Assembly: GCA_029055435.1 (NCBI GenBank)
Contig: JAIDDH010000030.1
Coordinates: forward strand, 1 to 54,503
Reading direction: 5' to 3'
Length of the DNA stretch: 54,503 bases
Source of the DNA: Acetatifactor sp.
GTDB taxonomy: Bacteria; Bacillota; Clostridia; Lachnospirales; Lachnospiraceae
Every line of letters begins with the position of its first letter. Position 1 is the stretch's first letter. Both the position numbers and the translations under genes were made by a program. The notes beneath the pieces were generated by a model. That model made no database searches, had not been told where the DNA came from, and saw only the letters and a list, made by a program, of their open reading frames with translations. This document shows positions 2,735 to 37,600 of the stretch, one piece after another.

Positions 2735-2760
2735 AGTGGAAGGCATGAAACTAAATCCTC

Positions 2761-2815: not shown

Positions 2816-2877
2816 ATTGTGGATATTGGGAAAGCGTTTGCACTGACATATTTGCAAAATACAGGGAGGAGGCAGTT

Positions 2878-3240: not shown

Positions 3241-3242
3241 GG

Positions 3243-6304: not shown

Positions 6305-6378
6305 AGCAAGGTATATCCGGCATGGAAAATTTTGCCGGACGAAAGAAGGCGATGTGTGACCGGAAAGGCGAGGGCTTG

Positions 6379-10789: not shown

Positions 10790-11755
10790 ATGATTTATCG
10801 ATTTTTGCCCGAGGGCGGCAGCAGTCTTTATGTCTTTGCCGGAATCCTGTTTGGGTTTATCGCGACAGTTTTTGCAACGGCAAAGCTCTGCCCCTATCTG
10901 CCAAAGGACGGCGGCCGGGAGTTTGCGCATGACGGGAAGCTCTCCGCGGGAAAGCCGCGTGGGGCGGGCATTATCTTTGTGCTGGTGTTTGTGGCTACTG
11001 CGCTGCTTTTTATTCCTCCGCAGGCGGAGATGACGATTTATCTGATTCTGATATCCATTTGTATGCTGACGGGTTTTTTGGACGACGCCTCCGAGAAGCC
11101 ATGGGGCGAGTACAAGAAGGGTTTTTTGGATTTGTGTGTGGCGGCTCTGGTGGCCATGACCTTTTTGAAATATAATTCCAATGTGGTGGAGTTGGCACTG
11201 TTTCATGTGAAGGTTGTGCTGCACCCGGTGGTGTTTGCACTGCTCACGGTGATTCTGGTGTGGGGGTCTGTGAATGTGACTAACTGCGCCGATGGAGTGG
11301 ACGGGCTCTCTGGAACACTGGGAATCATCACACTCATGACGATTTATCTCATTGATCGGATTAAGGACAGGCCTGAGAATTTTTCCTTTGGAATCCTGCT
11401 TTTTGCGGTATGTATTCTGGGGTATCTCTGGTACAATGCGACGCCCAGCAAGCTGATGATGGGTGATGCGGGGAGTCGGGCCATGGGGCTGTTTATCAGT
11501 ATCGCCATTCTGAAGACAGGCTGTCCGGTGCTGTATCTCCCGGCGGCATGTGTGTTGATTCTGGACGGAGGACTGGGGCTGTTGAAGGTGGCCCTGATCA
11601 GGTTTTTCAAGATTCACATTCTGACCCATGTCAGGACGCCTCTGCACGATCATGTGCGCAAGGTGTGGGAGTGGTCCAACACTCAGACCGTATACCGCTT
11701 TGCGATTATTCAGATCATCGTGTCCGCGGCGGTGGTGTTCGGAATACAGATGTAA
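10790..11755 (+). CDS. MraY/WecA-family polyprenyl-phosphate phosphosugar transferase (MraY-like)
   Basis: A 321-residue integral membrane enzyme of the PNPT superfamily, which transfers a phospho-sugar from a UDP-sugar to undecaprenyl phosphate. Family motifs are visible: LDDASEK (DDxxK type), NVTNCADGVDGLSG (the catalytic N..N..DG.DGL loop), GDAGSRAMG, and a late cytoplasmic loop TPLHDHVRK. The last corresponds to the PxHHH motif of MraY but has aspartate at its middle position (H286-D287-H288). About ten helices are expected. The start at 10790 follows GGGAGGAG by 7 nt; a longer frame from 10739 overlaps the upstream gene. No other mur genes are adjacent, so it could serve peptidoglycan or a separate lipid-linked glycan. 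Confidence 0.85.
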   Translation: MIYRFLPEGGSSLYVFAGILFGFIATVFATAKLCPYLPKDGGREFAHDGKLSAGKPRGAGIIFVLVFVATALLFIPPQAEMTIYLILISICMLTGFLDDASEKPWGEYKKGFLDLCVAALVAMTFLKYNSNVVELALFHVKVVLHPVVFALLTVILVWGSVNVTNCADGVDGLSGTLGIITLMTIYLIDRIKDRPENFSFGILLFAVCILGYLWYNATPSKLMMGDAGSRAMGLFISIAILKTGCPVLYLPAACVLILDGGLGLLKVALIRFFKIHILTHVRTPLHDHVRKVWEWSNTQTVYRFAIIQIIVSAAVVFGIQM

Positions 11756-11786: not shown

Positions 11787-12287
11787 ATGTATGATCAATT
11801 GACACCCAGCGACATCAAAAAGATGGAGGAAGAGATAGAGTACCGGAAGCTTGTGGTGCGGCCGAAGGCGCTGGAGGATGTGAAAGAGGCCAGGGCTCAC
11901 GGGGATCTGAGCGAGAATTTTGAGTATCATGCGGCCAAGAAGGTCAAAAATCAGAATGAGAGCCGGATTCGTTATCTGGAGAGAATGATTCGGACGGCGA
12001 AGGTGATATCGGAGGATTCCGCCGCGGACGAGATAGGCATCAACAATACGGTGACAGTGGTATTTCTGGACGACGGGAGCGAGGAGACCTACAAGATTGT
12101 GACCACGGTGCGGGGAAATTCACTGGAGGGTCTGATCAGCAATGAGTCCCCCCTGGGCAAGGCTCTGCTTGGCAAAAAGGCGGGGGATGTAGCGCATGTG
12201 CAGGTGAGCGACACGGTGGGCTATGATGTGCGTATCGTAAAATTTGAAAATACCGTGGATGACGGAGATCGGATAAGGAGTTTTTAG
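11787..12287 (+). CDS. greA: Transcription elongation factor GreA
   Basis: A 166-residue protein with the full GreA layout. The N-terminal coiled coil (residues 1-75) includes the tip motif GDLSENFEYHAAK, whose acidic residues enter the RNA polymerase secondary channel and stimulate cleavage of backtracked RNA. The C-terminal globular domain follows and ends with SPLGKALLGKKAGDV, typical of the family. It lies between the MraY-like gene and the HAD-CPBP gene with a 31-nt upstream gap, and its stop codon is directly followed by the next ATG. The placement inside an envelope operon is unusual but the protein itself looks normal. Confidence 0.95.
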   Translation: MYDQLTPSDIKKMEEEIEYRKLVVRPKALEDVKEARAHGDLSENFEYHAAKKVKNQNESRIRYLERMIRTAKVISEDSAADEIGINNTVTVVFLDDGSEETYKIVTTVRGNSLEGLISNESPLGKALLGKKAGDVAHVQVSDTVGYDVRIVKFENTVDDGDRIRSF

Positions 12288-13823
12288 ATGAAAAAATATC
12301 TGTTGTTTGATTTGGACGGAACCTTGACGGACCCCGGGGTGGGGATAACCACCTGTGTGCAGTACGCGCTGAAGTCTTTTGGCATCGAGGAGCCGGATCT
12401 GGAGAAGCTGGAGCGCTTTATCGGGCCGCCTCTGCGGGACAGTTTTATGGAGTTTTATGGTTTCAGCGCCGAGCAGGCGGAGGAAGCGGTGGCGAAGTAC
12501 CGGGAGCGGTTTCATGACACGGGTATTTTTGAGAATGAGGTGTATGCGGGGATTCCGCAGATGCTTAAGAATCTGCAGTCTAAGGGACTGTTTCTGGCGG
12601 TGGCATCTTCTAAGCCGCAGGTGTTTGTGGAGCGGATACTGGAGCATTTTGATCTGCGGAAATATTTTTCAGTGGTTGTGGGAAGTGAGCTGGACGGCTC
12701 CAGAGAAAGTAAGGATGAGATTGTGCAGGAGGCGCTGAATCGTCTGTTTGCCTACAAGCCCATACAGCGCGGTCAGGTCTATATGATTGGAGACCGCCGC
12801 TTTGATGTGGAGGGCGCAAGAGCAATCGGAATCGAGGCGGTGGGTGTGGCCTATGGCTATGGCAGTATGGAGGAATTGAAGGAGGCCAAGGCGGACTATA
12901 TAGTGCGCAGCGTGGAGGAACTGGAGAAGTTTCTGCTGCGGGGCGTGGAGGAAGAGAAGGGGGAAAGCAGACCCGAGGGCTTGAGCTTTCGGAGAATCTG
13001 GGTGATGCTCTACTCTTTTTTGCTGTTTATGGTGGTGCGTAATATTGTGATGTATGCGGTGGATCTGCTCTGCGTACAACTGTGGGATGCGACATTGCCG
13101 GCGGCGCTGGACGCCTTTTTGTTTGTGCGTGACCCGGAGATATTGAAAGGGGATCAGTTTGGCTTCACCGGCAATCAGGGCGTGCTGAAATCTGCACTGG
13201 GCTTTGTCGGAGGCGGACTGGCCGTCTGGTCCAACGCAAAGCTTTTGATCCAGAAGACGAAGGAGGAGACGAAGCTGAGCCATCTGCGTAGAGAGAGTTG
13301 GGCCGGCTATCTGCTGCTGGCCGGAGCTGCGGTCGGCGCGGTGCTTGGTCTGAATCTTTTGTTGGAGCTGCTGGGGCTGGTGAATAAATCCGGGGCTTAT
13401 CAGGCGGTGCAGGAGGATCAGTATTCTGCGGCCTTTCTGCTGGGCTTAATCACCTTTGGCGTGATTTCTCCTGTGGCGGAGGAGCTTTTGTTCAGAGGCA
13501 TCATTCACAATTATCTGCGCAGATTCATGAAGCCCAAGCTGGCGCTCTTAATTTCATCTGCGCTGTTTGGTATTTATCACATGAATTATGTGCAGGGGAT
13601 ATACGGTTTTTTCATGGGCTGTCTGATTGCGTATGCCTATGAGTATTTCGGGGATTTCAAGATGGCGTTGGCTGTCCACGCGGCCGCCAATATTCTGGTG
13701 TATTGTCTGACTTACGCGCCGATTGTCAACACGGCTTTTGTGAGCTGGCCGGTATGCTTGGTGTTCGCTGCGCTGGCGGTGGGCTGTCTGGGGACGCTGA
13801 ATAAGAGGAAGAATGTATTTTAG
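12288..13823 (+). CDS. HAD-superfamily phosphatase fused to a CPBP intramembrane protease
   Basis: Residues 1 to about 220 are a Gph/PpaX-like HAD hydrolase: nucleophile motif DLDGT (8-12), motif II near ASSKPQ, and motif IV GDRRFDVEGARAIG. Residues from about 240 to the end are a multi-helix membrane domain of the CPBP (Abi/CAAX protease) family: EELLFRG at 398-404, histidine H431 in FGIYHMN, and H464 in HAAANI, the usual zinc-peptidase residues. The HAD part should face the cytoplasm. The fusion is read without interruption, so it is not a simple gene overlap. Substrates of either half are unknown. AAGGAG inside the end of greA provides the ribosome binding site; greA stop and this ATG touch. 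Confidence 0.87.
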   Translation: MKKYLLFDLDGTLTDPGVGITTCVQYALKSFGIEEPDLEKLERFIGPPLRDSFMEFYGFSAEQAEEAVAKYRERFHDTGIFENEVYAGIPQMLKNLQSKGLFLAVASSKPQVFVERILEHFDLRKYFSVVVGSELDGSRESKDEIVQEALNRLFAYKPIQRGQVYMIGDRRFDVEGARAIGIEAVGVAYGYGSMEELKEAKADYIVRSVEELEKFLLRGVEEEKGESRPEGLSFRRIWVMLYSFLLFMVVRNIVMYAVDLLCVQLWDATLPAALDAFLFVRDPEILKGDQFGFTGNQGVLKSALGFVGGGLAVWSNAKLLIQKTKEETKLSHLRRESWAGYLLLAGAAVGAVLGLNLLLELLGLVNKSGAYQAVQEDQYSAAFLLGLITFGVISPVAEELLFRGIIHNYLRRFMKPKLALLISSALFGIYHMNYVQGIYGFFMGCLIAYAYEYFGDFKMALAVHAAANILVYCLTYAPIVNTAFVSWPVCLVFAALAVGCLGTLNKRKNVF

Positions 13824-13858: not shown

Positions 13859-16339
13859 ATGAAATTGACGAAGGTACTGCAGGAGATAAAAAATTTCATA
13901 TGGAAACATAAAATCAGGATTGCGGCGGGAATTTTATTTCTGGCCGCAGAACTGTTTTTTTTCTTTGGGACAGATGCACTGCTGGAGGAGGAAGTTCATT
14001 TCCTGACCGGGGAGGGCTTATGGGATATCGCCTTGACAGAAGAGATCCCTTCCGTCTGTCAGGAGTTTGTGCCCGCCCACAGCTCATTGCGTTCTGTGAG
14101 CTTCCGCATGGACTTGTCCAATGTGACGAAGTGGGACGGAACGGTCATCATATCTGTGGAGGATAAGGATTATCAGGAACTCTTTCAGGAGAGCAGGCAC
14201 TATTATGAGATTACGGATTGTGCCTACACGGATGTGGAGGTCAATTTGAAACTGTCGCCGCGTAAGCATTATTATCTGACTATTTACTGTACGCCTTCTT
14301 CTGCGGGGGAGTATCCCGCAATCAGTGTGTGCGGCAGGGAGTATGAACTGCCGGAGAGCCGGAGCCTGATTTACGGGGAGGAGCAGCCGGGACAGCATCT
14401 GGTGAGCCGTTATCAGTATGTGGACGCGCTGACCTTGCCCCGGGCAGCCATGGGAATTTTTCTGTGTGTGCTGGCCGCTGTGGGCGTGATGTTCGGAGTG
14501 CCGAAGCACCCGTATGTACGGAGGGCTGCTGCGGCGTTCCTGCTTCTGGCCGCGCCTGTTATTCTGGGCTGGAGGCTGGAGCTTCTGATTTGTGATACTA
14601 ATTTTTATCTTCCCTTTGCTATGATGTGGAATATCGGGTTGATGGTTGCCCTGGAGCTTCTGGTGCTTTTGGGGACGCATTCGCCCCGGGTCAGCATTGT
14701 CCTGACTAATACTGCGGTGACGGCGCTGTACTCGGCCAATTATTTTATGCGGATGTACAGGGGTACTGCTCTGCGCATGAATGATTTCACTGCCATCGGC
14801 ACGGCTGCCAAGGTGATGGGAAGCTATGATCTGAGTCCGGACAGTTCACTGGCTTTTATCTGGGGGATTTTGATCGTGTTTGTGGTGTTTGGCCTACAGA
14901 CCAAGGCTTCAAAGCCGGATGGGCATAAAGATGGTGCGAAGCTGGCAGTTCGTTCTGCGATTCCCTGTCTGATTTCTTATGCTGTTACTTCCGTGCTGGC
15001 CGTGGCGGCGGTTCTGTGGGGGGGATATCAATTGCTCTACACGGATATGCTGGCCCGGGCAGGCTTTGAGGGATTGGATATCACCGGGTTTGACTATGAG
15101 CTGATTTATTCCTTCGACGGGTATCTGGTGGGTACCTGTATCGAGATTCAGAATTCCAGAATCGTGAAACCGGAGGGGTATTCCGTGGAGCTGGTGGAGG
15201 AGATTCTGACGCAGGCCTCTATGGCGGAGGGACAGTCGTCGTCGGAAACTTCAGTGGTGGAGGCTGTGGACAAGTCGGAGCTGCCCCATGTGATTATGGT
15301 GATGAACGAGAGTCTCTCGGATATACAGGTGGTCCGCGATGTGGAGCTCAGTCAGGAGAATCTGGGCTTTATGAAATCGCTGCGGGAGAACACGATCAGT
15401 GGCTGGGTGAACGCTTCCACATTTGGCGGCGGCACGGCGAATGCGGAGTTCGAGGTTTTGACCGGCTGCAGCATGTCCTTTTTGTCGGTGAATTATTATC
15501 CTTATCAGCAGGCGCTGAACAAGTCTCTGAATTCTATGGTCAGCCGGATGAAGGAGAGCGGCTATACGGCTATTTCCATGCATCCGGAGAGTGCGGCTAA
15601 CTGGAACCGGAGAAATGTCTATCGCTATTATGGTTTTGACAAGATGCTGTGGAAGCAGGATTTTGAGGGTGAGGAGATTGTTCACAGCGGAGTGTCGGAT
15701 GCGGCCACCTACCGCCGCATTATAAAGTTTTATGAGAACAGAGAGCCAGGGGAGAAGCTGTTTGTCTTTGATGTGACCATGCAGAACCACGGCGGATATA
15801 CGGAGGACGAGGCTCCCTATGCGGTGACGGCTCTGAATCTGCAGGAGGAGCAGATCGATCAGTATCTGTCGCTGGTGAAGATATCTGACGACGCTTTCGC
15901 GGATCTGGTACATTATTTCGAGGAGCAGGATGAAAAGGTGATAATCTGTATGTTCGGGGATCATCAGCCATGGATATTTGATCTGATCGTGGATGCGAAT
16001 CTTGCGGACGGCAGCGGGGCCTCTCAGGAGATTATGAGTAAGTATAAGACGCCCTTTGTCATCTGGGCCAACTATGACATAGAGGAGGCTCAGGATATGG
16101 ATATCAGTATGAATTATCTGGGCGGTCTTCTGATGCGGACGGCGGGGGTTCCCCTTTCTCCCTATTTTAGATTTCTGGAGCAGGAGAGAGCGGAGTATCC
16201 CATCGTCACGGTGAACGGATATGTGGACAGCGCGGGGACTTACTTCGGCTGGGGCAGCAGAGAGAATGAGTTTTCGGAGTATCAGATGCTGCAGTACAAT
16301 TATCTGTTTGACGATGAGAAGGTGGATTGGGGGTACTGA
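13859..16339 (+). CDS. LTA-synthase-like membrane sulfatase-fold protein, array copy 1
   Basis: 826 residues. One N-terminal helix (about 20-40) is followed by an external domain of about 140 residues (core segment CQEFVPAHSSLRSVSF), four to six more helices, then a large external domain of the LtaS/alkaline-phosphatase superfamily. LtaS enzymes transfer glycerophosphate from phosphatidylglycerol using a threonine nucleophile and a metal. The matching residues appear to be E484 (MNES), T526 (GGGTANAEFE) and D701-H702 (GDHQP); NHGGY is also present. Known LtaS lacks the extra N-terminal external domain. First of five consecutive paralogues. The start has AGAAAGAGG close upstream. The polymer or acceptor made here cannot be told from sequence. 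Confidence 0.88.
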   Translation: MKLTKVLQEIKNFIWKHKIRIAAGILFLAAELFFFFGTDALLEEEVHFLTGEGLWDIALTEEIPSVCQEFVPAHSSLRSVSFRMDLSNVTKWDGTVIISVEDKDYQELFQESRHYYEITDCAYTDVEVNLKLSPRKHYYLTIYCTPSSAGEYPAISVCGREYELPESRSLIYGEEQPGQHLVSRYQYVDALTLPRAAMGIFLCVLAAVGVMFGVPKHPYVRRAAAAFLLLAAPVILGWRLELLICDTNFYLPFAMMWNIGLMVALELLVLLGTHSPRVSIVLTNTAVTALYSANYFMRMYRGTALRMNDFTAIGTAAKVMGSYDLSPDSSLAFIWGILIVFVVFGLQTKASKPDGHKDGAKLAVRSAIPCLISYAVTSVLAVAAVLWGGYQLLYTDMLARAGFEGLDITGFDYELIYSFDGYLVGTCIEIQNSRIVKPEGYSVELVEEILTQASMAEGQSSSETSVVEAVDKSELPHVIMVMNESLSDIQVVRDVELSQENLGFMKSLRENTISGWVNASTFGGGTANAEFEVLTGCSMSFLSVNYYPYQQALNKSLNSMVSRMKESGYTAISMHPESAANWNRRNVYRYYGFDKMLWKQDFEGEEIVHSGVSDAATYRRIIKFYENREPGEKLFVFDVTMQNHGGYTEDEAPYAVTALNLQEEQIDQYLSLVKISDDAFADLVHYFEEQDEKVIICMFGDHQPWIFDLIVDANLADGSGASQEIMSKYKTPFVIWANYDIEEAQDMDISMNYLGGLLMRTAGVPLSPYFRFLEQERAEYPIVTVNGYVDSAGTYFGWGSRENEFSEYQMLQYNYLFDDEKVDWGY

Positions 16340-16343
16340 TATT

Positions 16344-19300
16344 ATGAAGTTTTCGATTATAGTAGTGACCCTGAATCCGGGAGATAAGCTGAGGCAGACG
16401 GTTGAGAGCGTGCTGTCTCAGAGCTGTGAGGATTATGAGATTGTGGTGAAGGATGGAGGCAGCACCGACGGCTCGCTGGAGAGTCTGCCGGAGGATGCAC
16501 GCATCCGTGTCTACACGGAATCTGACAGCGGCATTTATGACGCCATGAATCAGGCGGTGAAAAAGGCGCAGGGAGAGTATCTGCTCTTTTTGAACTGCGG
16601 CGATGTATTTTATGATGCAGGAGTGCTGGAACGGGCATTGCGCTGCGCAGAGCAGGAGCGGGGAGATGCTCCGCTGGTGCTCTACGGAGATACTTATGGG
16701 GCAAAGAATGATGTGCTGATTGCCGCACCCGCGGAGATAGACGGTTTTGCCTGCTATCGGAATATTCCCTGTCATCAATCCTGTTTTTATGACGCGCGGC
16801 TCTGTAAGGAGAAGCCTTATCGCGCCGAATACCGTATTCGGGCGGACTATGACCATTTTCTGTGGTGCTATTACCGGGCGGGGGCCAGGATGGTATATCT
16901 GGACTGCGTGGTGGCCTCATACGAGGGCGGAGGGTACTCGGAGAGCCGGGAGAACCGTAAGCGGGACAAGGAGGAGCACAGACAGATCACACAGGAGTAT
17001 ATGTCCCCGGAGGAGCTTGGCAGATATCGGAGAGCCATGCTGCTCACGCTTGCGCCGGTGCGTAGCTTCCTGGCGGAGAACCGCCTGACCTCGGGGGCCT
17101 ATCACTGGATGAAGACCTGTTTTTATCGGCATAAGCTGAGAATATTGGCAGGATTTATAATATTCCTGGCGGAAGTCTTTTTATTTATGGGAACCGGGGT
17201 GCTGGGGGAGGACGCAATCAATTATCACACCGGAGAGGGTTCCTGGGAGGAGGAGCAGTCGGCGGAAACTTCGGTTTTTTGTCAGGAATTTGTGCCGAAA
17301 TATGGACACTTGCGGTCGTTTAGCTTTCTCATGGGCAAAGAGGGTGTCACACAGCCGGACGGCGCGGTCATCGTGCAGATTCTAGATGCGCAAGATCAGG
17401 TGCTTTTTGAGGAGACAAAGTCCTTTTCCGAGATACGGGACGGACGTTTTACGGACGTGACGGCGAATCTGGAACTTTCCACCCGGTCAACTTACCGGCT
17501 GGTATTGATCACCGAGCCTTCCTCCGCGGGTGAGTACACCACGGTGGGGGTCTGCGGCAGGGAGTATAAACTGCCGGAGAATCGTGCGCTGTGGAGCGGC
17601 GTAGATGATAAAGCTTCGGAAAATATTACCGAAAAATTTTCTGAAAATTTAATGGATATTCAGTTGGTGATGCGTTATCATTATGAAGATGCAGTGCCTG
17701 TGGGAAAAGCGCTGAAGGTGCTCTTGTTGTGTCTCGTGACGGCTTTTGGGGTGATGTTCGGACTGCCGGAGCGTCCATGGATACGCAGGACGGCAGGAAT
17801 CGTGCTGCTTCTGGCGGGACCTTTGGTGCTGGGGAGGCAGTTAGAGCTGCTCTCTTATAAAGAGGTGATGTATCTGCCATTTGCCATGCGCTGGAATCTG
17901 GGAATCATGTTTGGACTGGAGCTTGCGGTGCTGCTTGTCACCCACTCTCCACGCATCACGGTGGCGCTGACGAATCTTATGCTGACTTTTTTGTATTCAG
18001 CCAATTATTTTGTTATTTTATATCGCGGAACGCCGCTTCGCATGAATGATTTCGCGGCGGCGGGCACGGCGGCGAAGGTTTTGGGAGATTATGATTTTAC
18101 GCCCAACGACCGCCTGGCTATTATCTGGGGACTGTTGTTCTTGTTTGTGGTGTATGGTGTGCAGACGGGCAGAGCACGGGGGTCTGCAGGAAGGACTGAA
18201 GTTCATGGCCGGGCTTATTATGGAAGGAAGCTGTTGTCCTATGCGGTGTCGATTGCGATGGCTGCGGGGCTTATCTGTTTTGGCAGATATCAGCTTCTGT
18301 ATACGGATATGCTTCAGCAGGCGGGCTTTGCGGACGAGGAACTGCGGGGAATCGGGCAGGACATGATTTATTATGTGAACGGTTATCTGGTGGGCACCTG
18401 TATCGAGGTGAAGAACTCTCGTATTCTGCCGCCAGAAGACTATTCCGTGAGGGCTGTGGAGGAGATTCTGCAGGAGGTGTCAGAGGAGCGGGAGCTCTCT
18501 GCGCAAGATCAGGAGAGCCTGCCGCATGTGATTCTCATTATGAACGAGAGCTTTGCTGACCTGCGGGTGCTGGCGGATCTGGAGCTCAGCCAGGAAAATC
18601 TCCCCTTTTTTAACTCACTGAAGGAGAATACAGTGCGGGGCTATGTGAATGCCTCCGTGCTGGGAGGGGGCACCGCCAACTCGGAGTTTGAGGTGTTCAC
18701 CGGCTGCAGCGTGGCATTTTTCCCGGTAAATTATTACCCGTATCAGCAGGCGCTGAAAAGGCCTGTGGAGTCGGTAATCAGCCATATGAAGCGTTATGGT
18801 TATACTACGTACTCCATGCACCCGGAGCCTGCGGGCAACTGGAACCGCACCAGTGTGTATCGGTATTACGGATTCGATGAGAGTCTGTGGAAATCGGATT
18901 TTGCGGGGGTGGAGGTCGTTCACAGCGGGGCGTCGGACGCGGAGACCTACCGGAAAGTCATCGAACTGTATGAGAACAGGCAGCAGGGTGAGAAGCTGTT
19001 TATTTTTGATCTGACGATGCAGAATCACGGCGGTTATCCCGGAAAGGATGCGCCCTATGAGGTGGAGGAGACGCGGGTGAAGAATCCCGCGCTGGACGAA
19101 TATCTGTCGCTTGTCAAGATATCCGATGAGGCATTTGAAGATTTGGTGCATTATTTTGAGGCGCAGGATGAGCGGGTCGTGATCTGTCTGTTTGGCGATC
19201 ATCAGCCGTGGGTGTCGGATTTGATCGTGGAGGCTTATCAGACCGGGGCCGACGTTAGTCAGGAGAGGCTGATGGACAAGTACAAGACGCCCTTTGTCAT

Positions 19301-19577
19301 ATGGGCCAATTATAATATTGAGGAGGCCGAGGGGTACGATATCAGTATGAATTATCTGGGGGGACTTCTGGAGCGCACTGCAGGGATTCCGCTCTCGCCG
19401 TATTTTGCTTATCTGGAGAGGCTGCGGGAGGAATATCCTGTCATCACCATCAATGGCTATGTGGACGGCGATGGCAGTTGTGCGGGCTGGAGCAGCGAGG
19501 GGGATGAATTTCCGGATTACCGGATGTTACAATACAATTATCTGTTTGATGAGGATACCGTACAATGGGGGTATTGA
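16344..19577 (+). CDS. GT2 glycosyltransferase fused to an LTA-synthase-like protein, array copy 2
   Basis: 1,077 residues in one frame. Residues 1 to about 240 are a cytoplasmic GT2 glycosyltransferase (MKFSIIVVTLN start, DGGSTDGSLESL for nucleotide-sugar binding, ESDSGIYDAMNQAV, FLNCGD, IRADYDHF). From about 255 the protein repeats the plan of its neighbours: membrane helix, external domain (FCQEFVPKYGHLRSFSF), helices, LtaS-like domain with E735, T777 and D952-H953. The chosen ATG at 16344 lies 4 nt after copy 1; a longer frame from 16221 overlaps copy 1 and adds no domain. Linking a sugar-adding enzyme inside the cell to a phosphotransferase outside suggests that a lipid-linked glycan is made and then decorated or extended; this is inference. 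Confidence 0.88.
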   Translation: MKFSIIVVTLNPGDKLRQTVESVLSQSCEDYEIVVKDGGSTDGSLESLPEDARIRVYTESDSGIYDAMNQAVKKAQGEYLLFLNCGDVFYDAGVLERALRCAEQERGDAPLVLYGDTYGAKNDVLIAAPAEIDGFACYRNIPCHQSCFYDARLCKEKPYRAEYRIRADYDHFLWCYYRAGARMVYLDCVVASYEGGGYSESRENRKRDKEEHRQITQEYMSPEELGRYRRAMLLTLAPVRSFLAENRLTSGAYHWMKTCFYRHKLRILAGFIIFLAEVFLFMGTGVLGEDAINYHTGEGSWEEEQSAETSVFCQEFVPKYGHLRSFSFLMGKEGVTQPDGAVIVQILDAQDQVLFEETKSFSEIRDGRFTDVTANLELSTRSTYRLVLITEPSSAGEYTTVGVCGREYKLPENRALWSGVDDKASENITEKFSENLMDIQLVMRYHYEDAVPVGKALKVLLLCLVTAFGVMFGLPERPWIRRTAGIVLLLAGPLVLGRQLELLSYKEVMYLPFAMRWNLGIMFGLELAVLLVTHSPRITVALTNLMLTFLYSANYFVILYRGTPLRMNDFAAAGTAAKVLGDYDFTPNDRLAIIWGLLFLFVVYGVQTGRARGSAGRTEVHGRAYYGRKLLSYAVSIAMAAGLICFGRYQLLYTDMLQQAGFADEELRGIGQDMIYYVNGYLVGTCIEVKNSRILPPEDYSVRAVEEILQEVSEERELSAQDQESLPHVILIMNESFADLRVLADLELSQENLPFFNSLKENTVRGYVNASVLGGGTANSEFEVFTGCSVAFFPVNYYPYQQALKRPVESVISHMKRYGYTTYSMHPEPAGNWNRTSVYRYYGFDESLWKSDFAGVEVVHSGASDAETYRKVIELYENRQQGEKLFIFDLTMQNHGGYPGKDAPYEVEETRVKNPALDEYLSLVKISDEAFEDLVHYFEAQDERVVICLFGDHQPWVSDLIVEAYQTGADVSQERLMDKYKTPFVIWANYNIEEAEGYDISMNYLGGLLERTAGIPLSPYFAYLERLREEYPVITINGYVDGDGSCAGWSSEGDEFPDYRMLQYNYLFDEDTVQWGY

Positions 19578-19580
19578 CGA

Positions 19581-22103
19581 ATGAAGATTTGGAAAAGGGC
19601 CGTTGGCTGGCTTAAGGATTGCGTGTGTCATCATAAGGGAAGACTGGCGGCGGGACTTATCGTATTTGTGGCAGAGCTTGTTTTATTTCTGGCGTCAGGA
19701 GTGCTTTTGGAGGATGAGACCAATTTCCTCTCGGGGGAAGGTTCCTGGGAGGAGTATTTGACGGAAGGAAGCGCAAGCTTTTGTCAGGAGTTTCAGCCGG
19801 AGCATCGGCATCTGCGTTCTCTGAGCTTTCTGGTGAGCCTGACGGATGTTACAGAGCGGGACGGTGAGGTCGCCGTTGTGGTAGCGGATAAGAAGGGCAG
19901 GGTACTCTTTGAGAAAAGTCTGGGATTTGATGAGCTCTCAGACGGGCGCTTCACGGATGTGGAGGTGGATCTGACGCTTTCCACATGGGAAAAATATGAT
20001 CTGACGCTGATAGCGAAGCCTTCTTCGGCAGGGGAGTATCCCACGGTGAGTGTCTGTGACACTTCATGGGATTTGCCCGAGAGCAGAAGCCTGCAGCGCG
20101 GGGATGAGACGTTTAAAGAATGGCAGTTGGTGACCCGTTATGTATATGAGGAGGCTTTGACGGACGCCAGACTGGGCATGCTTATATTATTAAGTCTGTT
20201 GACGGCGCTCGGTGTCGGTTTCGGGCTGCCGAAAAATATAAAGCTGCGGAGAGCGGTGGGGATTTTAATTATGGTGGCTGCGCCCTTTGTTCTGGGGAGC
20301 AGGCTGGAGAGTCTGACCTTTGACGAGGTCTATGCGCTGCCCATCACGATGCGTTTTCGGACGATGGATTATCTTCCCTTTGCGCTGTTGTGGAATCTGG
20401 GCATTATGTATGCGGCGGAGTTGGTGATCTTTCTGTGTACGCATTCCACGAGAGTGACGATCGTGCTCACGAATATTGCAGTGACCCTTTTGTATTCCGT
20501 CAATTATTTTGTGATTGCCTATCGGGGGACACCGCTTCGTGTCAATGATTTTACTGCTATAGGAACGGCTGCCAAGGTAGTGGGAGATTACAGCTTTGAG
20601 CCCAACAGTGCGCTGGCGCTTGTGTGGTGCTGGGCAATCCTGTTTGTGGTTTGGGGCGTGCAGACGGGAAAGGCGTTAAAACCGATTCTAAAGCTGTCAG
20701 AAAAAGAGGATTCGTCAAAAATAGAAAAGCGTCCTGCGGGAAGAAAGCTGTGGCGGTTTGTGTCCTATGGTGTCACCATTGCCGTGGCAGTAGTCATCAC
20801 AGTATGGGGAGGGCATCTTTTGCTCTACACGGATCTGCTGGACAGGGTCGGCTTTTCTAACGAGGAATTTAAAGGGTTTTATCAGGATATGCTCTATTAT
20901 CGAAACGGTTATCTGGTGGCTACCTGTATCGAGGTCAGGAATTCCCGCATTTTGGTTCCGGGGGAATATTCCAGGGATCGGGTGGAGGAGCTTCTGGAGG
21001 AGAACAGGGAGGAGCAGGAGCTTTCTGAGGAGGAGATATCCGAGCTGCCCCATGTGATTTTGGTGATGAACGAGAGTTTTGCGGATCTGCGGGTGTTGGC
21101 GGATCTGGAGCTCAGTCAGGAAAATCTGTCCTTTTTTAATTCTCTGAAGGAGAATACGGTGCGGGGCTATGTGAATGCTTCCGTGCTGGGCGGCGGCACT
21201 GCCAATTCGGAGTTTGAAGTGTTCACCGGCTGTACGGTGTCCTTTTTCCCGGTGAATTATTATCCCTATCAGCAGGCGGTCAAAAGACCCATCGATACGC
21301 TGGTGAGCCGCATGGAATCCTATGGCTATCGCACGGTCTCCATGCATCCGGAGGCCGCGGGAAACTGGAACAGGACGAATGTCTATCGGTATTATGGCTT
21401 TGACGAAAGTCTGTGGAAACCGGATTTCGCGGGTGCGGAGGTGGTTCACAGCGGGGTGTCGGACGAAGAGACCTACAAGCGGATCATCGAGCTGTACGAG
21501 AACAGGCAGCAGGACGAAAAGCTGTTTATCTTTGATCTGACCATGCAGAATCACGGCGGATATTCTTCTCATGGAGCGCCTTATGAGGTGCAGGAGACGC
21601 GGATGCAGAATCCCATTCTGGATGAGTATCTGTCGCTTGTGAAGATTTCCGACGAGGCTTTTGAGGATTTGGTGCAGTATTTTCAGGAGCAGGACGAGAA
21701 GGTAGTCATTTGTATGTATGGCGACCATCAGCCATGGGTGTCCGATCTGATTGTGAATTATTATTACAAGGGGATGCATATGCCGCCTGAGCAGATGATG
21801 GACAAATATAAGACACCTTTTGTCATCTGGGCCAATTATGATATCGAGGAGGCGGAAGGGTATGATATCAGTATGAATTATCTGGGAGGGCTGCTTCTCA
21901 GAACGGCGGGGATTCCTCTCTCTCCCTATTTTACCTTTTTGGAACAGCAGCGGGAGGAATATCCCATTGTCACCATCAACGGCTATGTGGACAAGGATGG
22001 CAACTATGCGAACTGGGGCAGTGAGGGAGATGAGTTCCCGGAGTATCGGATGCTGCAGTATAATTATTTATTTGATGAAAATACCGTACAATGGGGGTAT
22101 TGA
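19581..22103 (+). CDS. LTA-synthase-like membrane protein, array copy 3
   Basis: 840 residues with the same layout as copy 1: N-terminal helix, external domain (FCQEFQPEHRHLRSLSF), helices that include a short insertion near DEVYALPITMRFRTMD, and a catalytic domain with E498, T540 and D715-H716. Its catalytic half is very close to copy 2 (for example the shared segments MNESFADLRVLADLELSQ and KENTVRGYVNASVLGGGT), which points to recent duplication or gene conversion. It begins 3 nt after copy 2. The ribosome binding site is the G-run inside the upstream gene's final Trp-Gly-Tyr codons. Confidence 0.88.
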   Translation: MKIWKRAVGWLKDCVCHHKGRLAAGLIVFVAELVLFLASGVLLEDETNFLSGEGSWEEYLTEGSASFCQEFQPEHRHLRSLSFLVSLTDVTERDGEVAVVVADKKGRVLFEKSLGFDELSDGRFTDVEVDLTLSTWEKYDLTLIAKPSSAGEYPTVSVCDTSWDLPESRSLQRGDETFKEWQLVTRYVYEEALTDARLGMLILLSLLTALGVGFGLPKNIKLRRAVGILIMVAAPFVLGSRLESLTFDEVYALPITMRFRTMDYLPFALLWNLGIMYAAELVIFLCTHSTRVTIVLTNIAVTLLYSVNYFVIAYRGTPLRVNDFTAIGTAAKVVGDYSFEPNSALALVWCWAILFVVWGVQTGKALKPILKLSEKEDSSKIEKRPAGRKLWRFVSYGVTIAVAVVITVWGGHLLLYTDLLDRVGFSNEEFKGFYQDMLYYRNGYLVATCIEVRNSRILVPGEYSRDRVEELLEENREEQELSEEEISELPHVILVMNESFADLRVLADLELSQENLSFFNSLKENTVRGYVNASVLGGGTANSEFEVFTGCTVSFFPVNYYPYQQAVKRPIDTLVSRMESYGYRTVSMHPEAAGNWNRTNVYRYYGFDESLWKPDFAGAEVVHSGVSDEETYKRIIELYENRQQDEKLFIFDLTMQNHGGYSSHGAPYEVQETRMQNPILDEYLSLVKISDEAFEDLVQYFQEQDEKVVICMYGDHQPWVSDLIVNYYYKGMHMPPEQMMDKYKTPFVIWANYDIEEAEGYDISMNYLGGLLLRTAGIPLSPYFTFLEQQREEYPIVTINGYVDKDGNYANWGSEGDEFPEYRMLQYNYLFDENTVQWGY

Positions 22104-22106
22104 TGG

Positions 22107-24575
22107 ATGGAGCGTATGAGGAAAATCATTTCGAGTGTGTTGCCGGGAATCCGGGAGTGGTTTGGCGATTGTGTGCGTCATCACAAGCTGCGCATGGCGG
22201 CAGGACTTGTGGTTTTGGCGGCGGAGCTGTTTTTGTTCCTGGGGACCGACATCCTGTTGGAGGATAAGACCAATTATCTCACGGGAGAGGGTTCATGGGA
22301 GCAGGAGCAGGGCCCTGAGGCATCAGGCTTTTGTCAGGCCTTCAGACCGCAGGCAAGTCATCTGCGCATGATCAGCTTCCTCATGGGCAAGGACGGGGTG
22401 ACTGTGCAGGACGGGCAGGTTACCGTGACGATATCGGATGCGGAGAACAACATTCTCTTTGAGGAGAGCAGGAGCTTCGCAAAGATTTCCAATGGCTCTT
22501 TCACGGATGTGGGGATGGACTTAGAGCTTTCTCCCGGAAAGACTTATTATCTGACGCTTGTGACCGAGCCTTCCTCTCTGGGGGAATATCCCACGGTGGG
22601 GGTGTGCGGCAAGGAGTATGTCCTGCGGGAAAACCGGACTCTGACTTATGGGGAGGAGATGCCGGGAGTACAGTTGGTGGCCCGCTATCAATATGCGGAT
22701 GTGCTGCCGGCCGCCAAGGCGGGAAAGGTGATACTGATTTGTGTTCTGACCGCGTTTGGCATTATGTTCGGTCTGCCGAAAAATGCTGTGCTGCGCAGGA
22801 CGGTGGGAATTCTTCTGTTGTTGGCCGGTCCTTATGTGCTGGGCAGGCAGTTGGAGCTTTTGACTTATAGAGAAGCATATTATCTGCCCTTTGCCATGAA
22901 GTGGAACGTGGCCATTATGTATGGTCTGGAGCTGATCGTGTTGCTTTGCACCCAGTCTCCCGCCGTGACGGCGACGTTCACCAATGTGGTGCTGACTTTA
23001 TTATATTCGGCCAATTATTTTATGATCATGTATCGGAACACGCCGCTTCGCATGAATGAGTTCACTGCAGTGGGGACTGCGATGGAGGTGGTAGGAGAGT
23101 ATCGTTTTGTGCCGAATGACCATATGGCGTTTGCCTGGGGATTGATGCTTTTAATCGTGGTATTTGCCGTGCAGACCGGTGTGCGGCGAAAGGTACAAAA
23201 TGAAGATAATCGCAGAAAGAGAGTGGTGAAGTTCTGTCTCAGCCATGCGCTGACTATTTGTATCGCGGCTGTGGTGGCGTTTGCGGGCAAATATTATCTG
23301 TGTGATCTGGACACGCTCACGGAGGCGGGATTTGCATATGAGGAATTCAAGGGTTTTCATCAGGATTTGATTTTTTATATGGACGGGTATTTGGTAGCGA
23401 CTCTGGCTGAGGCGAGAGAGGCCAAGATTGTTCCACCGGAGAATTACAGCACGGAACTGGTGGAGGAACTGTTGACGGAAGCTGCAAAGAACAGTGTGAC
23501 GTCCAAGGACGAGCTGCCTCATGTCATTGTGGTGATGAATGAGAGTCTTGCCGATCTCAGTATTCTTAAGGATGTGGAGCTCAATCAGGACAATCTGACT
23601 TTTGTGCGTTCACTGAAGGAGAATACCATCAAGGGATATGCGAATGCATCGGTGTTGGGCGGCGGCACTGCCAACACAGAGTTTGAGCTGTTTACAGGCT
23701 GCAGTATGGCATTTTTGCAGAAGGGGTATTATCCCTATCAGCAGGCTATCAGGCGTGAGATTCCCTCCGCCATCAGCCGGTTGAAGCAAAACGGCTATAC
23801 CACAATCTCTATGCATCCCGAGTATGCCAGAAACTGGAACCGGGAGAAGGTATATCAGTATTATGGTTTTGACCGCTCGCTGTGGAAACCGGATTTTGCG
23901 GGCGCAGAGGTTGTTCATGCGGGGGTGTCGGATGCGGAGACCTATCGGAAGGTCATTGAACTGTACGAGGGCAGACAGCCGGATGAAAAGCTGTTCATTT
24001 TTGATCTGACTATGCAGAATCATGGCGGATATATCGGTATGTTGAACCAGGAGCATGAGGTGCGCGCAGAGAAACTGCAAAATCCTGAGCTGGACGCGTA
24101 TCTCTCTCTGGTGAAGATATCTGACGAGGCTTTCTCCGAGCTGATCGCTTATTTTGAGAAAGAGGAGGAGAAGGTGATTATCCTGCTGTTCGGCGACCAT
24201 CAGCCCAGCATCAGCGGGGTCAATCCTTATTTAGAGGAGGAAGGGCGGCATCCCGGTCCGCTGGAGGGAATGTTGTATTATAAGACACCCTTTGTCATCT
24301 GGGCAAACTATGATATTGAGGAGGCGGAAGGGTACGATATCAGCATGAATTATCTGGGCGGGCTTTTGATGGAGACTGCCGGGATAGAGCTTTCCCCGTA
24401 TTTTGCTTATCTGAGGGAGCTTCGGCAGGAATACCCTATCATCACGATAAACGGTTATGTGGACAAGGACGGAAATTATACGAACTGGGGCAGCGGGGGG
24501 GATGAGTTCCCGGAGTACCGGATGCTGCAGTATAATTATCTGTTTGATAAACGCAGGGTAGACTGGGGGTATTGA
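22107..24575 (+). CDS. LTA-synthase-like membrane protein, array copy 4
   Basis: 822 residues with the array's standard plan: N-terminal helix (MAAGLVVLAAELFLFLG), external domain (FCQAFRPQASHLRMISF), helices, and a catalytic domain with E479, T521 and D697-H698. The region after GDHQP differs from copies 1-3 (SISGVNPYLEEEGRHPGP), where a bound ligand might be read differently. Gap of 3 nt to both neighbours. Ends in the same tail as all copies: YRMLQYNYLFD, then a Trp-Gly-Tyr C-terminus. Confidence 0.88.
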   Translation: MERMRKIISSVLPGIREWFGDCVRHHKLRMAAGLVVLAAELFLFLGTDILLEDKTNYLTGEGSWEQEQGPEASGFCQAFRPQASHLRMISFLMGKDGVTVQDGQVTVTISDAENNILFEESRSFAKISNGSFTDVGMDLELSPGKTYYLTLVTEPSSLGEYPTVGVCGKEYVLRENRTLTYGEEMPGVQLVARYQYADVLPAAKAGKVILICVLTAFGIMFGLPKNAVLRRTVGILLLLAGPYVLGRQLELLTYREAYYLPFAMKWNVAIMYGLELIVLLCTQSPAVTATFTNVVLTLLYSANYFMIMYRNTPLRMNEFTAVGTAMEVVGEYRFVPNDHMAFAWGLMLLIVVFAVQTGVRRKVQNEDNRRKRVVKFCLSHALTICIAAVVAFAGKYYLCDLDTLTEAGFAYEEFKGFHQDLIFYMDGYLVATLAEAREAKIVPPENYSTELVEELLTEAAKNSVTSKDELPHVIVVMNESLADLSILKDVELNQDNLTFVRSLKENTIKGYANASVLGGGTANTEFELFTGCSMAFLQKGYYPYQQAIRREIPSAISRLKQNGYTTISMHPEYARNWNREKVYQYYGFDRSLWKPDFAGAEVVHAGVSDAETYRKVIELYEGRQPDEKLFIFDLTMQNHGGYIGMLNQEHEVRAEKLQNPELDAYLSLVKISDEAFSELIAYFEKEEEKVIILLFGDHQPSISGVNPYLEEEGRHPGPLEGMLYYKTPFVIWANYDIEEAEGYDISMNYLGGLLMETAGIELSPYFAYLRELRQEYPIITINGYVDKDGNYTNWGSGGDEFPEYRMLQYNYLFDKRRVDWGY

Positions 24576-24578
24576 CGG

Positions 24579-27140
24579 ATGCGTTTTTTTAAGCTCGCCG
24601 AAAGATTTCGGGAGGATTGGCATTCCAGAAGAAATAAATATTGGGTTCTGGCGGCTGCTCTGCTGGCGGTTGTGCTGACGGTTCTGCTTGTGGGCAAAAG
24701 CAGTCCGCTGCGGGAGGATGCGGAGCATTATCTGGCGGGCGAGGGCTCCTACGGTCTGGCCTTTGGCGTCGGAGAACAGTATGTGCAGGAGTTTCGTCCA
24801 CAGTATGGCAAGCTGAAGAGTGTGGGCATCGTAGTGGATATGCAAAAGACGGCAGAACGAGAGGCCGACGGGCAGGAGACTGCGGAGCAGGACGGAGGGC
24901 AGGCTGAAGAGCAGACTCCGGGTAGTGTGAGACTTGGCATTGTGGATGGTGCGGGGCTTGAGCTCTGGTCGAAGGAGCTTTTGGCGGCGGAACTCTCTGC
25001 GGGCGTCTATACGGATGTGGATGTGAATTTGGAGCTTTCTGCAGGAAAGACGTATTATCTGACTGCGGAGAGCTTTCTGGTGGAGACGCTTTCGCCGGAG
25101 CTGGTGGTGTGCAGCACGGATTACGAGCTGCGGGAAAACAGGAGTCTTGCGGGGCGTGAGGAGATTGCGGGGACGCAGCTTTTGACCAGATACCGTTATG
25201 TGGATGCCCTGCTTCCGGGGACGGCGGCCAAGGCTTTATTGCTGGTGTTTCTGGCGGCCCTGGGGATTGCGGTGGGTCTGCCTGCGGATCGGCGTATCAG
25301 AGCGGCGGTGTCAGTTGTTTTGCTGGCGGCCGGGCCGTTTGTGCTGGGACGGCGGCTGGAGCTGCTTCTGCCTACTAATGTATTGCTTCCCCATGCCATG
25401 AAGTGGAATGTGGGACTGATGTTTTTGTTTGAGCTGATCGTGCTTTTGTGTACGCTCTCCGAACGGTTTACAATTGTGTTCTGCAATATCGCGCTGACGA
25501 TTTTGTACTGTGCAAATTATTTTGTCTATGCCTTCAGGGGGACTTATCTGAAGGCCAATGAGTTTACCGCTATCGGCACGGCAGTGGACGTGGCGGGGAA
25601 ATACCGGTTTCAGCCGGACAGCCATATGACCATGTGCTGGTGCATTGCGGCGGTGTTGGTGGTCTGGGGAATGTGTACGGGGAAGCCGGGAAAGGTGTCT
25701 GAACAGAGAAGGGAGCCCGGGCAGAGTATCCGTATCGGGAAACTTCGGTTTTCATGGAAGGGGATTCTCGTCCATGGTCTGGGTCTTGTCCTGGGTATCG
25801 CGCTTTTGTCCGGCGCGCGTCATGTGCTTCTGGACACAGAGCTTCTTCTGGAGCATGGCTTTAGCTATTACAGCGGCATCAACTCAGAGTATACCTATTA
25901 TTTTGACGGATATCTAGTGGGGAGTATGCTCAATATCAGGTATTCCCGAATCACAGAGCCGGCGGGCTATTCCGTGAGACGGGTGGAGGAAATTTTGAGT
26001 GCTTATCGGGAGGGAGGACAGGAGAATTCCGAAGGCAGTCAGGGGAGTGTGGCACCGGACGTCTCACAGGAGCTGCCCCATATTATTTTGATTATGAACG
26101 AGAGCTGGTCAGATCTGCGGGTAAACGGCAATCTGGAGCTCAGTCAGGAGAATCTCTCGTTTACAAAGTCTCTGCGGGAAAATACGGTCAAGGGGTATGT
26201 GAATGCCTCGGTGCTGGGCGGCGGCACGGCCAACTCGGAGTTTGAGGTATTTACCGGGTGTGCCATGGGATTTTTGCCGGATTCCTATTATGCGTATCAG
26301 CAGGCGGTGACGCATCCCATGCCGTCTATGGTGTCCCATCTGCAGGATTTGGGCTACTCCACGGTATCTATGCATCCCGAGCGCGCTTTGAATTGGCGCA
26401 GGAATGTGGTGTATAATTATCTGAGCTTTGAGAGACGGTTCTGGAAGGAGGATTTTGAGGGAGCTGAGGTCATTCACTCCGGGGTATCGGATGCCGAGAC
26501 CTTCCGTAAGGTGGAAGAACTGTATGAGAATCGGGCGGAGGGCGAAAAGCTTTTTATATTTGATCTGACCATGCAGAATCACGGCTATTACCGCAAGTCC
26601 AATGTGGAGCGGACTGTGGAGGCTGTGAATGTGGACTGTGATGAGGCGGATTTATATTTGTCTCTGGTATATGAGACGGACAGGGCCTTCGGGGAGCTGG
26701 TGCAGTATTTTGAGAAGGAGCAGGAGCCGGTAGTGATCTGTATGTTCGGCGACCATCAGCCCAAGTTTGAGACGGAGGATTTTTATGAGGATATCTATCG
26801 TCAGACCGAGGGGCTCACGGAGGTGGATAAAAAGAGGAATCTCTATAAAACGCCATTTGTCATCTGGGCCAATTATGACATTCCGGAGGCAGAGGGGCTG
26901 GACATCAGTATGAGTTATCTGGGTGTGCTTCTGCAGCAGACGGCAGGAGTCGAGATGACGCCGTATTTCCGATTCCTGGCCGGGCAGATGGAGGAGTATC
27001 CAGTCGTCACAGTGAACGGTTATGTGGATCGTGAGGGGAATTACAGTAACTGGTCGGGAAGCGGAGAGGAATTCCCGGATTACCGGATGTTGCAGTATAA
27101 TTATCTGTTTGATAACAATATCGTGGAGTGGGGATACTGA
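24579..27140 (+). CDS. LTA-synthase-like membrane protein, array copy 5
   Basis: 853 residues and the most divergent of the five. Its N-terminal external domain carries an acidic/glutamine-rich insertion (about residues 90-110, EADGQETAEQDGGQAEEQ). The catalytic domain keeps E508, T550 and D725-H726, but NHGGY is changed to NHGYY and NWNR to NWRR. It is the last gene of the operon; a strong hairpin follows 50 nt later. Function is expected to parallel the other copies, with a possibly different acceptor. Confidence 0.87.
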   Translation: MRFFKLAERFREDWHSRRNKYWVLAAALLAVVLTVLLVGKSSPLREDAEHYLAGEGSYGLAFGVGEQYVQEFRPQYGKLKSVGIVVDMQKTAEREADGQETAEQDGGQAEEQTPGSVRLGIVDGAGLELWSKELLAAELSAGVYTDVDVNLELSAGKTYYLTAESFLVETLSPELVVCSTDYELRENRSLAGREEIAGTQLLTRYRYVDALLPGTAAKALLLVFLAALGIAVGLPADRRIRAAVSVVLLAAGPFVLGRRLELLLPTNVLLPHAMKWNVGLMFLFELIVLLCTLSERFTIVFCNIALTILYCANYFVYAFRGTYLKANEFTAIGTAVDVAGKYRFQPDSHMTMCWCIAAVLVVWGMCTGKPGKVSEQRREPGQSIRIGKLRFSWKGILVHGLGLVLGIALLSGARHVLLDTELLLEHGFSYYSGINSEYTYYFDGYLVGSMLNIRYSRITEPAGYSVRRVEEILSAYREGGQENSEGSQGSVAPDVSQELPHIILIMNESWSDLRVNGNLELSQENLSFTKSLRENTVKGYVNASVLGGGTANSEFEVFTGCAMGFLPDSYYAYQQAVTHPMPSMVSHLQDLGYSTVSMHPERALNWRRNVVYNYLSFERRFWKEDFEGAEVIHSGVSDAETFRKVEELYENRAEGEKLFIFDLTMQNHGYYRKSNVERTVEAVNVDCDEADLYLSLVYETDRAFGELVQYFEKEQEPVVICMFGDHQPKFETEDFYEDIYRQTEGLTEVDKKRNLYKTPFVIWANYDIPEAEGLDISMSYLGVLLQQTAGVEMTPYFRFLAGQMEEYPVVTVNGYVDREGNYSNWSGSGEEFPDYRMLQYNYLFDNNIVEWGY

Positions 27141-28048: not shown

Positions 28049-29272
28049 GTGGAGAATGTCTGCCAAAGAGAAGAAAACAATAAAGAGATAGAGAAGGAAA
28101 AAGACGAGAAAGAGTTAAGAGCGGAAAAAGTACGAAAGCAAACCGGCAAAGGATGGCTCATCGCAAAGCTTGTGGCGATTCTGGTGCTCGCCATGGGGCT
28201 TGTGGTAATGACTGTGTGCATAGAGAGGGGAGAGAGCTTTTCCTTGCTGCTTGTAGATCTGCGGACGAGATTTGTGGACAATGCGCTGTTTCCATATGCT
28301 TTTAGAAATAAACTGATTGTACTGGCCGCCGTATTCCTTCTGCTGATTGTTGTGGCTTTGTTTACACAGGATTTCTGGTGGAAGCTGAAGCTGGGAAAGT
28401 GGGAGGTGGTTGTAAGCCCGCAGGCAGCATGTTTTCGGTGGGGGTGGAACCTGTGTCTGATTGTCGTGGCCGCCGCGTTTGTCGTTCAGGGAGTGAGGTT
28501 TACGCATCCCACGGTGAGAGCCGCATGGAAGGAATGGGATGGGGATGCATTGATTGCCCATGCCGGTGGAGGAATTGAGGAGCAGAACTATACCAACAGC
28601 AAGGAGGCGTTCATAAGCAGTTATGAGGCCGGTATGCGAACTATCGAGATAGACTTTGTGCTTACTTCGGATGACAAGCTGGTGTGCTGCCATGATTGGA
28701 AAAAGCAGATGTGCAGTGATTATGAAGCAGAATATGTCTATTCGGAGGAGGAATTTCTGAATATACGGATTTATGACCGTTTTACGCCCATGTCTCTGGA
28801 GACTCTGATGGAATTGATGAAAATTTATGACGATGTGCTGATTGTGACGGACACTAAGGATAGGAAGATAGAGCTGGTGCAGAAGGAGTTTCAGATTTTG
28901 GTGGACACGGCAAAGATGGTGGGAGCCCCGGAGCTTTTGGATCGTTTTGTGGTGCAGATTTATGACTATGAGATGTATGATGCCGTGGAGGCAATCTACT
29001 CGTTTCCCTCGTATGTCCTGACTCTGTATCGTCTGGGCGGTGTGGACGAGGAGAGTTTTCGAGAGCATTGCAGATTCCTGAGGAATAGGGATATCAATTC
29101 CATCACCATGCGGCAGAGCTGGTTCCAGCCGGAGTTTAAGGAGATAGCGGATACTTATGGGATCGATATCTATGTCCACACAGTGAACAATGCGGATACG
29201 GTGGAGGAGATGCAGGCCTGGGGCGTGCGGGGATTCTACACGGACTATGTGACACCGGATATGATACCATGA
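28049..29272 (+). CDS. Membrane-anchored glycerophosphodiester phosphodiesterase family protein
   Basis: 407 residues. A charged N-terminus is followed by about three membrane helices (near 35-55, 90-110 and 130-150) and a catalytic GDPD domain predicted outside the cell. Catalytic-type histidines are H171 (IAHAGGG) and H215 (CHDW), with acidic IEIDF between them and YTNSKEAF after the first. GDPD enzymes hydrolyse glycerophosphodiesters to glycerol-3-phosphate. The usual HR dipeptide reads HA here, as I recall for a YTNS subfamily. The GTG start lies 3 nt after the small XRE gene with GAGGG upstream. Sitting beside five LtaS-like genes, it could trim or recycle a glycerophosphate polymer; this is inferred. 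Confidence 0.85.
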   Translation: MENVCQREENNKEIEKEKDEKELRAEKVRKQTGKGWLIAKLVAILVLAMGLVVMTVCIERGESFSLLLVDLRTRFVDNALFPYAFRNKLIVLAAVFLLLIVVALFTQDFWWKLKLGKWEVVVSPQAACFRWGWNLCLIVVAAAFVVQGVRFTHPTVRAAWKEWDGDALIAHAGGGIEEQNYTNSKEAFISSYEAGMRTIEIDFVLTSDDKLVCCHDWKKQMCSDYEAEYVYSEEEFLNIRIYDRFTPMSLETLMELMKIYDDVLIVTDTKDRKIELVQKEFQILVDTAKMVGAPELLDRFVVQIYDYEMYDAVEAIYSFPSYVLTLYRLGGVDEESFREHCRFLRNRDINSITMRQSWFQPEFKEIADTYGIDIYVHTVNNADTVEEMQAWGVRGFYTDYVTPDMIP

Positions 29273-37564: not shown

Positions 37565-37600
37565 ATGGATTCTTCAATGGAAAACCATGGAAGAATCCAT
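37565..37600. terminator. Hairpin between convergent gltD and M56 genes
   Basis: ATGGATTCTTC (37565-37575) pairs with GAAGAATCCAT (37590-37600), a perfect 11-bp stem. It overlaps the end of the minus-strand M56 gene. It lacks a clear T-run on either side. Confidence 0.4.

Follow-up and report, generated by a model that had tools for sequence, protein, structure and literature searches.

The locus raises the question of why a bacterium would keep five consecutive copies of a predicted glycerophosphate transferase, and which envelope polymer they would serve. The genes lie in the 54,503-nucleotide stretch of Acetatifactor sp. that was analysed as a whole (the window; contig JAIDDH010000030.1 of assembly GCA_029055435.1). 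According to the open reading frames and their translations, positions 13859-27140 are covered by five paralogues placed head to tail on the + strand: gene 1 (13859-16339, 826 aa), gene 2 (16344-19577, 1077 aa), gene 3 (19581-22103, 840 aa), gene 4 (22107-24575, 822 aa) and gene 5 (24579-27140, 853 aa). The gaps between them are 4, 3, 3 and 3 nt from gene 1 to gene 5, and every copy matches the Pfam Sulfatase family PF00884 (E 1.5e-30 to 2.3e-26), which confirms the tandem of five paralogues, 3-4 nt apart over 13.3 kb, described in the original prediction. The five proteins have a common domain order, with a first membrane helix, a beta-sandwich (about 14003-14443 in gene 1), a membrane domain and the C-terminal PF00884 transferase domain, which is found at about 15272-16216, 18513-19454, 21039-21980, 23505-24452 and 26067-27017 in genes 1 to 5, respectively. 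The pairs of copies that were compared are 47-64% identical. No other PF00884 match occurs in the source genome (3.47 Mb in 158 contigs, 99.48% complete). Neither misassembly nor chance accounts for the arrangement, since the five genes recur, identically ordered, in the sister species (L036, L115), which was assembled separately.

At each of the four junctions in the window (16325-16346, 19563-19583, 22089-22109 and 24561-24581) a GGGGG run was observed 9-10 nt ahead of the next ATG. It is supplied by the terminal Trp-Gly-Tyr-stop codons (TGGGGGTAYTGA) of genes 1-4, and the same arrangement is repeated in all four junctions of L036. Since the run lies inside these codons, the sequence for the conserved C-terminus may also serve the following gene as its ribosome-binding site.

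The catalytic domains appear to be intact. The motifs MNES, GGGT and GDHQP are present in all five copies, as are the Glu, Thr, Asp and His of the metal site and the His, Trp, Arg and His of the glycerophosphate site, eight positions whose roles we take to be those of their counterparts in LtaS structures, the correspondence being visible in the alignments. Among 136 collected proteins, a set that includes some genes fetched twice, seven of these eight positions are invariant and the Trp is replaced by Tyr in 23. The dN/dS values against the sister species L036 (G034) are 0.117-0.147 for all five genes and for the glycosyltransferase part of gene 2 described below. The catalytic set that had been seen in the letters is thus retained, and residues, fold and selection together support the predicted glycerophosphate-transfer chemistry. 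The possibility that these are inactive sulfatase-fold relics was rejected, given the site residues kept in all five copies and the purifying selection (dN/dS 0.12-0.15).

The catalytic domain resembles GacH more than LtaS, in sequence as well as in predicted structure. In a profile comparison to solved relatives GacH was matched with E 1.7e-30, ahead of LtaP (2.8e-14) and Staphylococcus aureus LtaS (1.7e-12), the solved chains of the last two consisting of catalytic domains only, so that the comparison with them covers this part. GacH with sn-glycerol-1-phosphate was also the best match of the predicted structure (TM-score by target 0.78), whereas LtaP reached 0.65-0.66 and LtaS-type enzymes 0.60-0.65. 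The LtaS equivalog model NF053595, run on three copies, gave 52.6, 49.3 and 31.4 bits for genes 1, 2 and 5 against a cut-off of 970. One glycerophosphate-site position, which is W in the array as in LtaS, is F in GacH. As described in excerpts of two papers (PMC12282279, PMC11754754), GacH and its counterpart SccH release glycerol phosphate from phosphatidylglycerol onto side-chain sugars, SccH being specific for the glucose that one transferase pair installs. By analogy with this precedent the array would decorate a glycan, and we consider it probable that the five genes form a GacH-like module that decorates an as yet undescribed envelope glycan with glycerophosphate.

A feature absent from the original prediction bears on which glycan this may be. 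Ahead of its first membrane helix gene 2 carries an extra N-terminal GT2 domain (16344-17051, + strand, 236 aa; PF00535, E 3.5e-19, 69.8 bits vs a gathering threshold of 23.3), which accounts for its length of 1077 aa compared with 822-853 aa in the other copies. The structure model of this domain has a GT-A fold, with the fucosyltransferase WrtF and SpsA as the closest matches; the WcaE model gave 80 bits, far under its cut-off of 369. The mechanically called open reading frame opens at 16221, and the start codon ATG 16344 is conserved, being the same in the sister species, where the GT2 part is 84.7% identical (L036). An assembly or frame artefact in gene 2 was ruled out, as the same fusion is found in seven of 101 genomes of the genus (G000, G034, G098, G084, G019, G047 and G009). 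It is also countered by the fusion in 43 of 102 collected proteins (39 with the N-terminal sandwich and 4 without it), a biased set in which one member is the GT4 protein of the window and the others come from two array-seeded searches.

The GT2 domain itself is far more widespread than its fusion. A match at E 1e-15 was obtained in 98 of the 101 genus genomes (in G092 only at 35% identity), and in most of them it is a shorter, separate open frame. When aligned, these stand-alone proteins end near the point where the fused ones enter the membrane helix. We chose 20 regions with a stand-alone GT2, and in 13 of them the order is GT4-GreA-HAD-CPBP-GT2, with the HAD-CPBP gene directly upstream of GT2; in one region GT2 stands before GltB without the other neighbours, and the remaining six have none of them. 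In one of these six (L160) the Pfam matches of the neighbouring genes include other sugar transferases. The presence in 98 of 101 genomes and the syntenic place together indicate that the fused domain is a gene widespread in the genus and belonging to an envelope-type locus. In G055 the GT2 is a gene of its own, placed between two array genes, which is the state expected before fusion. The GT2 is also present in genus members that have no array-type enzymes (e.g. G089), and its job therefore needs no glycerol phosphate. In our reading the GT2 domain would make the acceptor for glycerol phosphate, and its fusion suggests that glycerol phosphate likely goes onto a surface sugar chain, not onto ordinary lipoteichoic acid.

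The same neighbours accompany the array in the window. A GT4-type polyprenyl-phosphate sugar-phosphate transferase (10790-11755, + strand, PF00953) is followed by a GreA-like gene (11787-12287, + strand) and by a gene for a HAD phosphatase-CPBP (Rce1-like) fusion protein identified with Pfam (12288-13823, + strand), the latter directly upstream of the array. The only PF00953 matches in the source genome are this GT4 gene and the MraY of the division cluster; the GT4 protein stays below the cut-offs of both the MraY model (76 bits) and the WecA model (47 bits). Further upstream of the array, a PMT_2 (GT39-like) membrane glycosyltransferase (6322-8013, + strand) may belong to the same pathway. 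With GT2 fused and with GT4 and PMT_2 near, the locus has too few glycosyltransferases to build a glycan alone. Two LCP proteins are encoded in the source genome and could anchor a glycan to the wall.

Downstream of gene 5 lies a gene for a membrane protein with a glycerophosphodiester phosphodiesterase (GDPD) domain (28049-29272, + strand, PF03009). In the window it is uncoupled, 908 nt after gene 5, whereas the distance is 9 nt in L037 and 6 nt in G055. It follows the gene 5 lineage in all four loci of that lineage (the window, L036, L037 and G055), and no such gene was seen in L042, which forms the next branch of the gene 5 clade.

Other genes of the window were noted. An unusual fusion of an EF-G/tetracycline-protection-like GTPase to a YacP NYN domain (8029-10761; tet_protect model 414 bits vs a cut-off of 775) has counterparts 60-84% identical in relatives' loci where matched. 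An acyltransferase gene (52801-53943) has relatives (L037 13643-14770; L119 9626-10753) that come after the GDPD gene in L037 and G055 (73% and 60% identity), whereas in the window it is about 23.5 kb away. The segment 40214-44253 has low GC (34-38%) and CBM2, VWA and TSP3-repeat genes, and is perhaps foreign or adhesin-like. Three genes for BlaR1/M56-type membrane peptidases and one for a BlaI-type repressor are found at 392-4997 and 37574-39565.

The main competitor to glycan decoration is a lipoteichoic acid (LTA) machinery, in which the copies would be a primase and polymerases building polyglycerophosphate on a glycolipid while GT2 makes the anchor. We hold this to be rather unlikely. Fold and site are as in LtaS and LtaP, the Trp of the glycerophosphate site is the LtaS residue, Bacillus subtilis has four LtaS-type enzymes including a primase (from an excerpt of PMC3089915), a fused glycosyltransferase could supply the anchor, and no other PF00884 protein of the source genome is at hand for the task. 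Against this stand the closer match to GacH in sequence and model, the equivalog scores far under the cut-off in the three copies run, and the same GT2 in genus members without such enzymes or, as in L160, beside other sugar transferase genes. The source genome also gave no match to PF06925 (UgtP-type glycolipid synthase, the one type of anchor synthase covered; B. subtilis control positive) or to PF04914 (DltD, D-alanylation; B. subtilis and Lactococcus controls positive), although DltD is not needed in every LTA maker. PF04464 (Glyphos_transf, TagF-type wall teichoic acid) likewise had no match in the source genome and was positive in the B. subtilis control. The description of the genes as LTA-synthase-like holds for the fold and site of the family. 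As a label it is too narrow, because GacH is the best match, the equivalog scores are low and two classical LTA partners are unmatched.

Returning to a glycan acceptor, the N-terminal sandwich is the part of these proteins that might contact it. A profile search finds the domain in all five copies, in agreement with what had been proposed. The exact motif given for it, CQxFxP...LRxxSF, does not hold throughout, gene 5 having V for the C of CQxFxP and LKSVGI where LRxxSF had been quoted. It follows the first membrane helix and precedes the membrane domain, which suggests that it is external, and the outside location of the protein parts would follow by analogy with the GacH and LtaS families. 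No Pfam family matched the domain at E 0.001. The structure prediction and the wider search suggested in the original prediction were carried out: the predicted fold resembles sandwiches of several kinds, some of them lectin-like, and the domain occurs in other Clostridia relatives too. The best structural matches are phage baseplate and viral capsid proteins. PHR domains score like carbohydrate-binding modules against it, and the lectin likeness is one of shape only. Glycan binding by this outside domain would fit our reading. That the domain is unique to the array was rejected, as the profile finds it in those relatives and in stand-alone proteins. Divergence among the copies is faster in the N-terminal domains than in the catalytic ones, and orthologues show the same trend, so the faster change is no proof of acceptor switching; we regard the case for such switching as weak.

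The sandwich was also seen outside the array. Beside a PMT_2-like gene the source genome encodes two more sandwich proteins (L114, G000:C38, 8046-9911, 9857-10609 and 10512-12161 for the trio; also L125), and the trio is present likewise in the sister species. A stand-alone 221-aa sandwich protein (L118 8675-9340) is encoded directly upstream of the fused gene in G084.

The next question is whether the number five has a meaning. In L036 the five genes are 81.6-87.2% identical copy by copy to those of the window. When 96 catalytic domains were placed in a tree, every copy of the window paired with the L036 gene at the same position, with support of 100/100, 100/99, 100/60, 100/100 and 100/99 for genes 1 to 5. 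This tree left out seven short catalytic domains, the repeat loci (L006-L016, L115, L117, L123) and most Collinsella-type rows; among its labels, the truncated row L116 is marked 'none' although the gene has the N-terminal domain, and L050 sits among the 'ecto' rows without a profile match. The gene 1 lineage also holds the first place in L038 (98/87) and, with weak support, in L037 (88/34), and the gene 5 lineage also occurs in L037 and G055 (100/99); the fused copy of L037 is unplaced. The phylogeny that had been suggested for the five copies thus gives a one-to-one pairing with the sister species. The earlier proposal of several acceptors, or of steps along one polymer, is compatible with five separately conserved lineages, and its two options fit them alike.

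The array is variable across relatives. The profile was matched at E 0.001 in 70 of the 101 genus genomes, many of the matches being weak or partial. Five full copies on one contig are found in G000 and G034, two copies in G098, three in G084 (two of them adjacent), three in L037, and several in G055, split across contig ends. A family-wide search, with up to two candidates scored per genome, gave a match at E 1e-60 in 144 of 397 genomes. In a plasmid search 37 records matched, and among the five matches listed the identity is 27.6-36.5%.

The five genes could be near-equivalent tandem duplicates that exchange parts, their number reflecting dosage or mosaic redundancy without special meaning, an explanation compatible with either chemistry. 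Copy number at the locus does vary (0, 1, 2, 3 or 5). Moreover the catalytic domains of genes 2 and 3 share 81% identity, compared with only 50-53% for the rest of the two proteins, and outside the catalytic domain the closest copy to gene 2 is gene 4 (57-59%), so neighbouring genes have likely exchanged parts. We nevertheless find mere redundancy unlikely, since the lineages are matched one-to-one in the sister species and two of them, one with weak support, recur in L037, purifying selection acts on all five, and the N-terminal and membrane domains differ by 41-66% between copies. Transfer of another group by the same fold, e.g. phosphoethanolamine, is highly improbable, for although MCR-1 and EptC domains are among the fold matches, they rank far under GacH and LtaS (E 3.4e-9 or weaker vs 6.8e-20), and the H, W, R and H of the glycerophosphate site are kept in all five copies.

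Glycerophosphate decoration of an envelope glycan can be put together as follows. The Thr of GGGT is predicted to accept glycerol phosphate from phosphatidylglycerol, forming an enzyme intermediate at a metal bound by Glu, Thr, Asp and His; this intermediate would then pass the glycerol phosphate to a sugar hydroxyl outside the cell. In the cytosol, the GT4 protein might start the glycan on a lipid carrier and the GT2 domain would add a sugar, after which the glycan would be flipped. Those parts of these membrane proteins that face outside may then keep hold of it by means of the lectin-like sandwich during the addition of glycerol phosphate. The five copies would decorate different sites or act at different chain stages, and the GDPD protein could remove or trim glycerol phosphate. 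The target would likely be the glycan worked on by the fused GT2 and the neighbouring GT4 gene, and the fusion would hold the enzyme that makes the acceptor sugar together with one decorating enzyme. Both the acceptor and this division of labour among copies are presumptive. More tentatively still, it is possible, if somewhat doubtful, that a bifunctional transmembrane enzyme, adding sugar inside and glycerol phosphate outside on the same lipid-linked glycan, leads an array whose lectin-like domains read different chain positions, thereby giving an undescribed surface polymer of a gut commensal a defined pattern of glycerophosphate groups.

A protein 98% identical to gene 2 is attributed to an Acetatifactor sp. 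The Acetatifactor group lives in the gut and the source bacterium is likely a gut commensal. It carries five such predicted enzymes, and a natural fusion directs attention to the sugar transferase likely to make their acceptor, so that the envelope polymer of these Lachnospiraceae and its charging become a question addressable at one locus. Glycerol phosphate on streptococcal wall glycans was overlooked for decades, as stated in an excerpt of PMC11754754, and in streptococci it affects cell shape, division, zinc tolerance and killing by human phospholipase (excerpts of PMC11754754 and PMC12282279).

Among known systems, GacH of Streptococcus pyogenes (SccH in S. mutans) likewise has a membrane domain followed by an outside sulfatase-fold domain. 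To our knowledge no fusion of GT2 enzymes such as WcaE, WrtF and SpsA, which have the GT-A fold in common with the GT2 part of gene 2, to a phosphotransferase is known, and in open-licence papers we found no description of a five-gene array or of a GT2 joined to an enzyme of the LtaS or GacH type. With 824 aa GacH is similar in length to the array proteins (excerpt of PMC12282279). Its first 395 residues are described in the excerpted text as a transmembrane domain, and neither a GT2 fusion nor an array is described for GacH in these excerpts. LtaS, LtaP and the four LtaS-type enzymes of B. subtilis have the fold, metal site and glycerophosphate-site residues of the array. B. subtilis also has several LtaS-type paralogues per genome, not described as one tandem array in the excerpt of PMC3089915. 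Set beside these systems, the locus is an intact, conserved variant of GacH-like enzymes in which the number five and the fusion are unusual.
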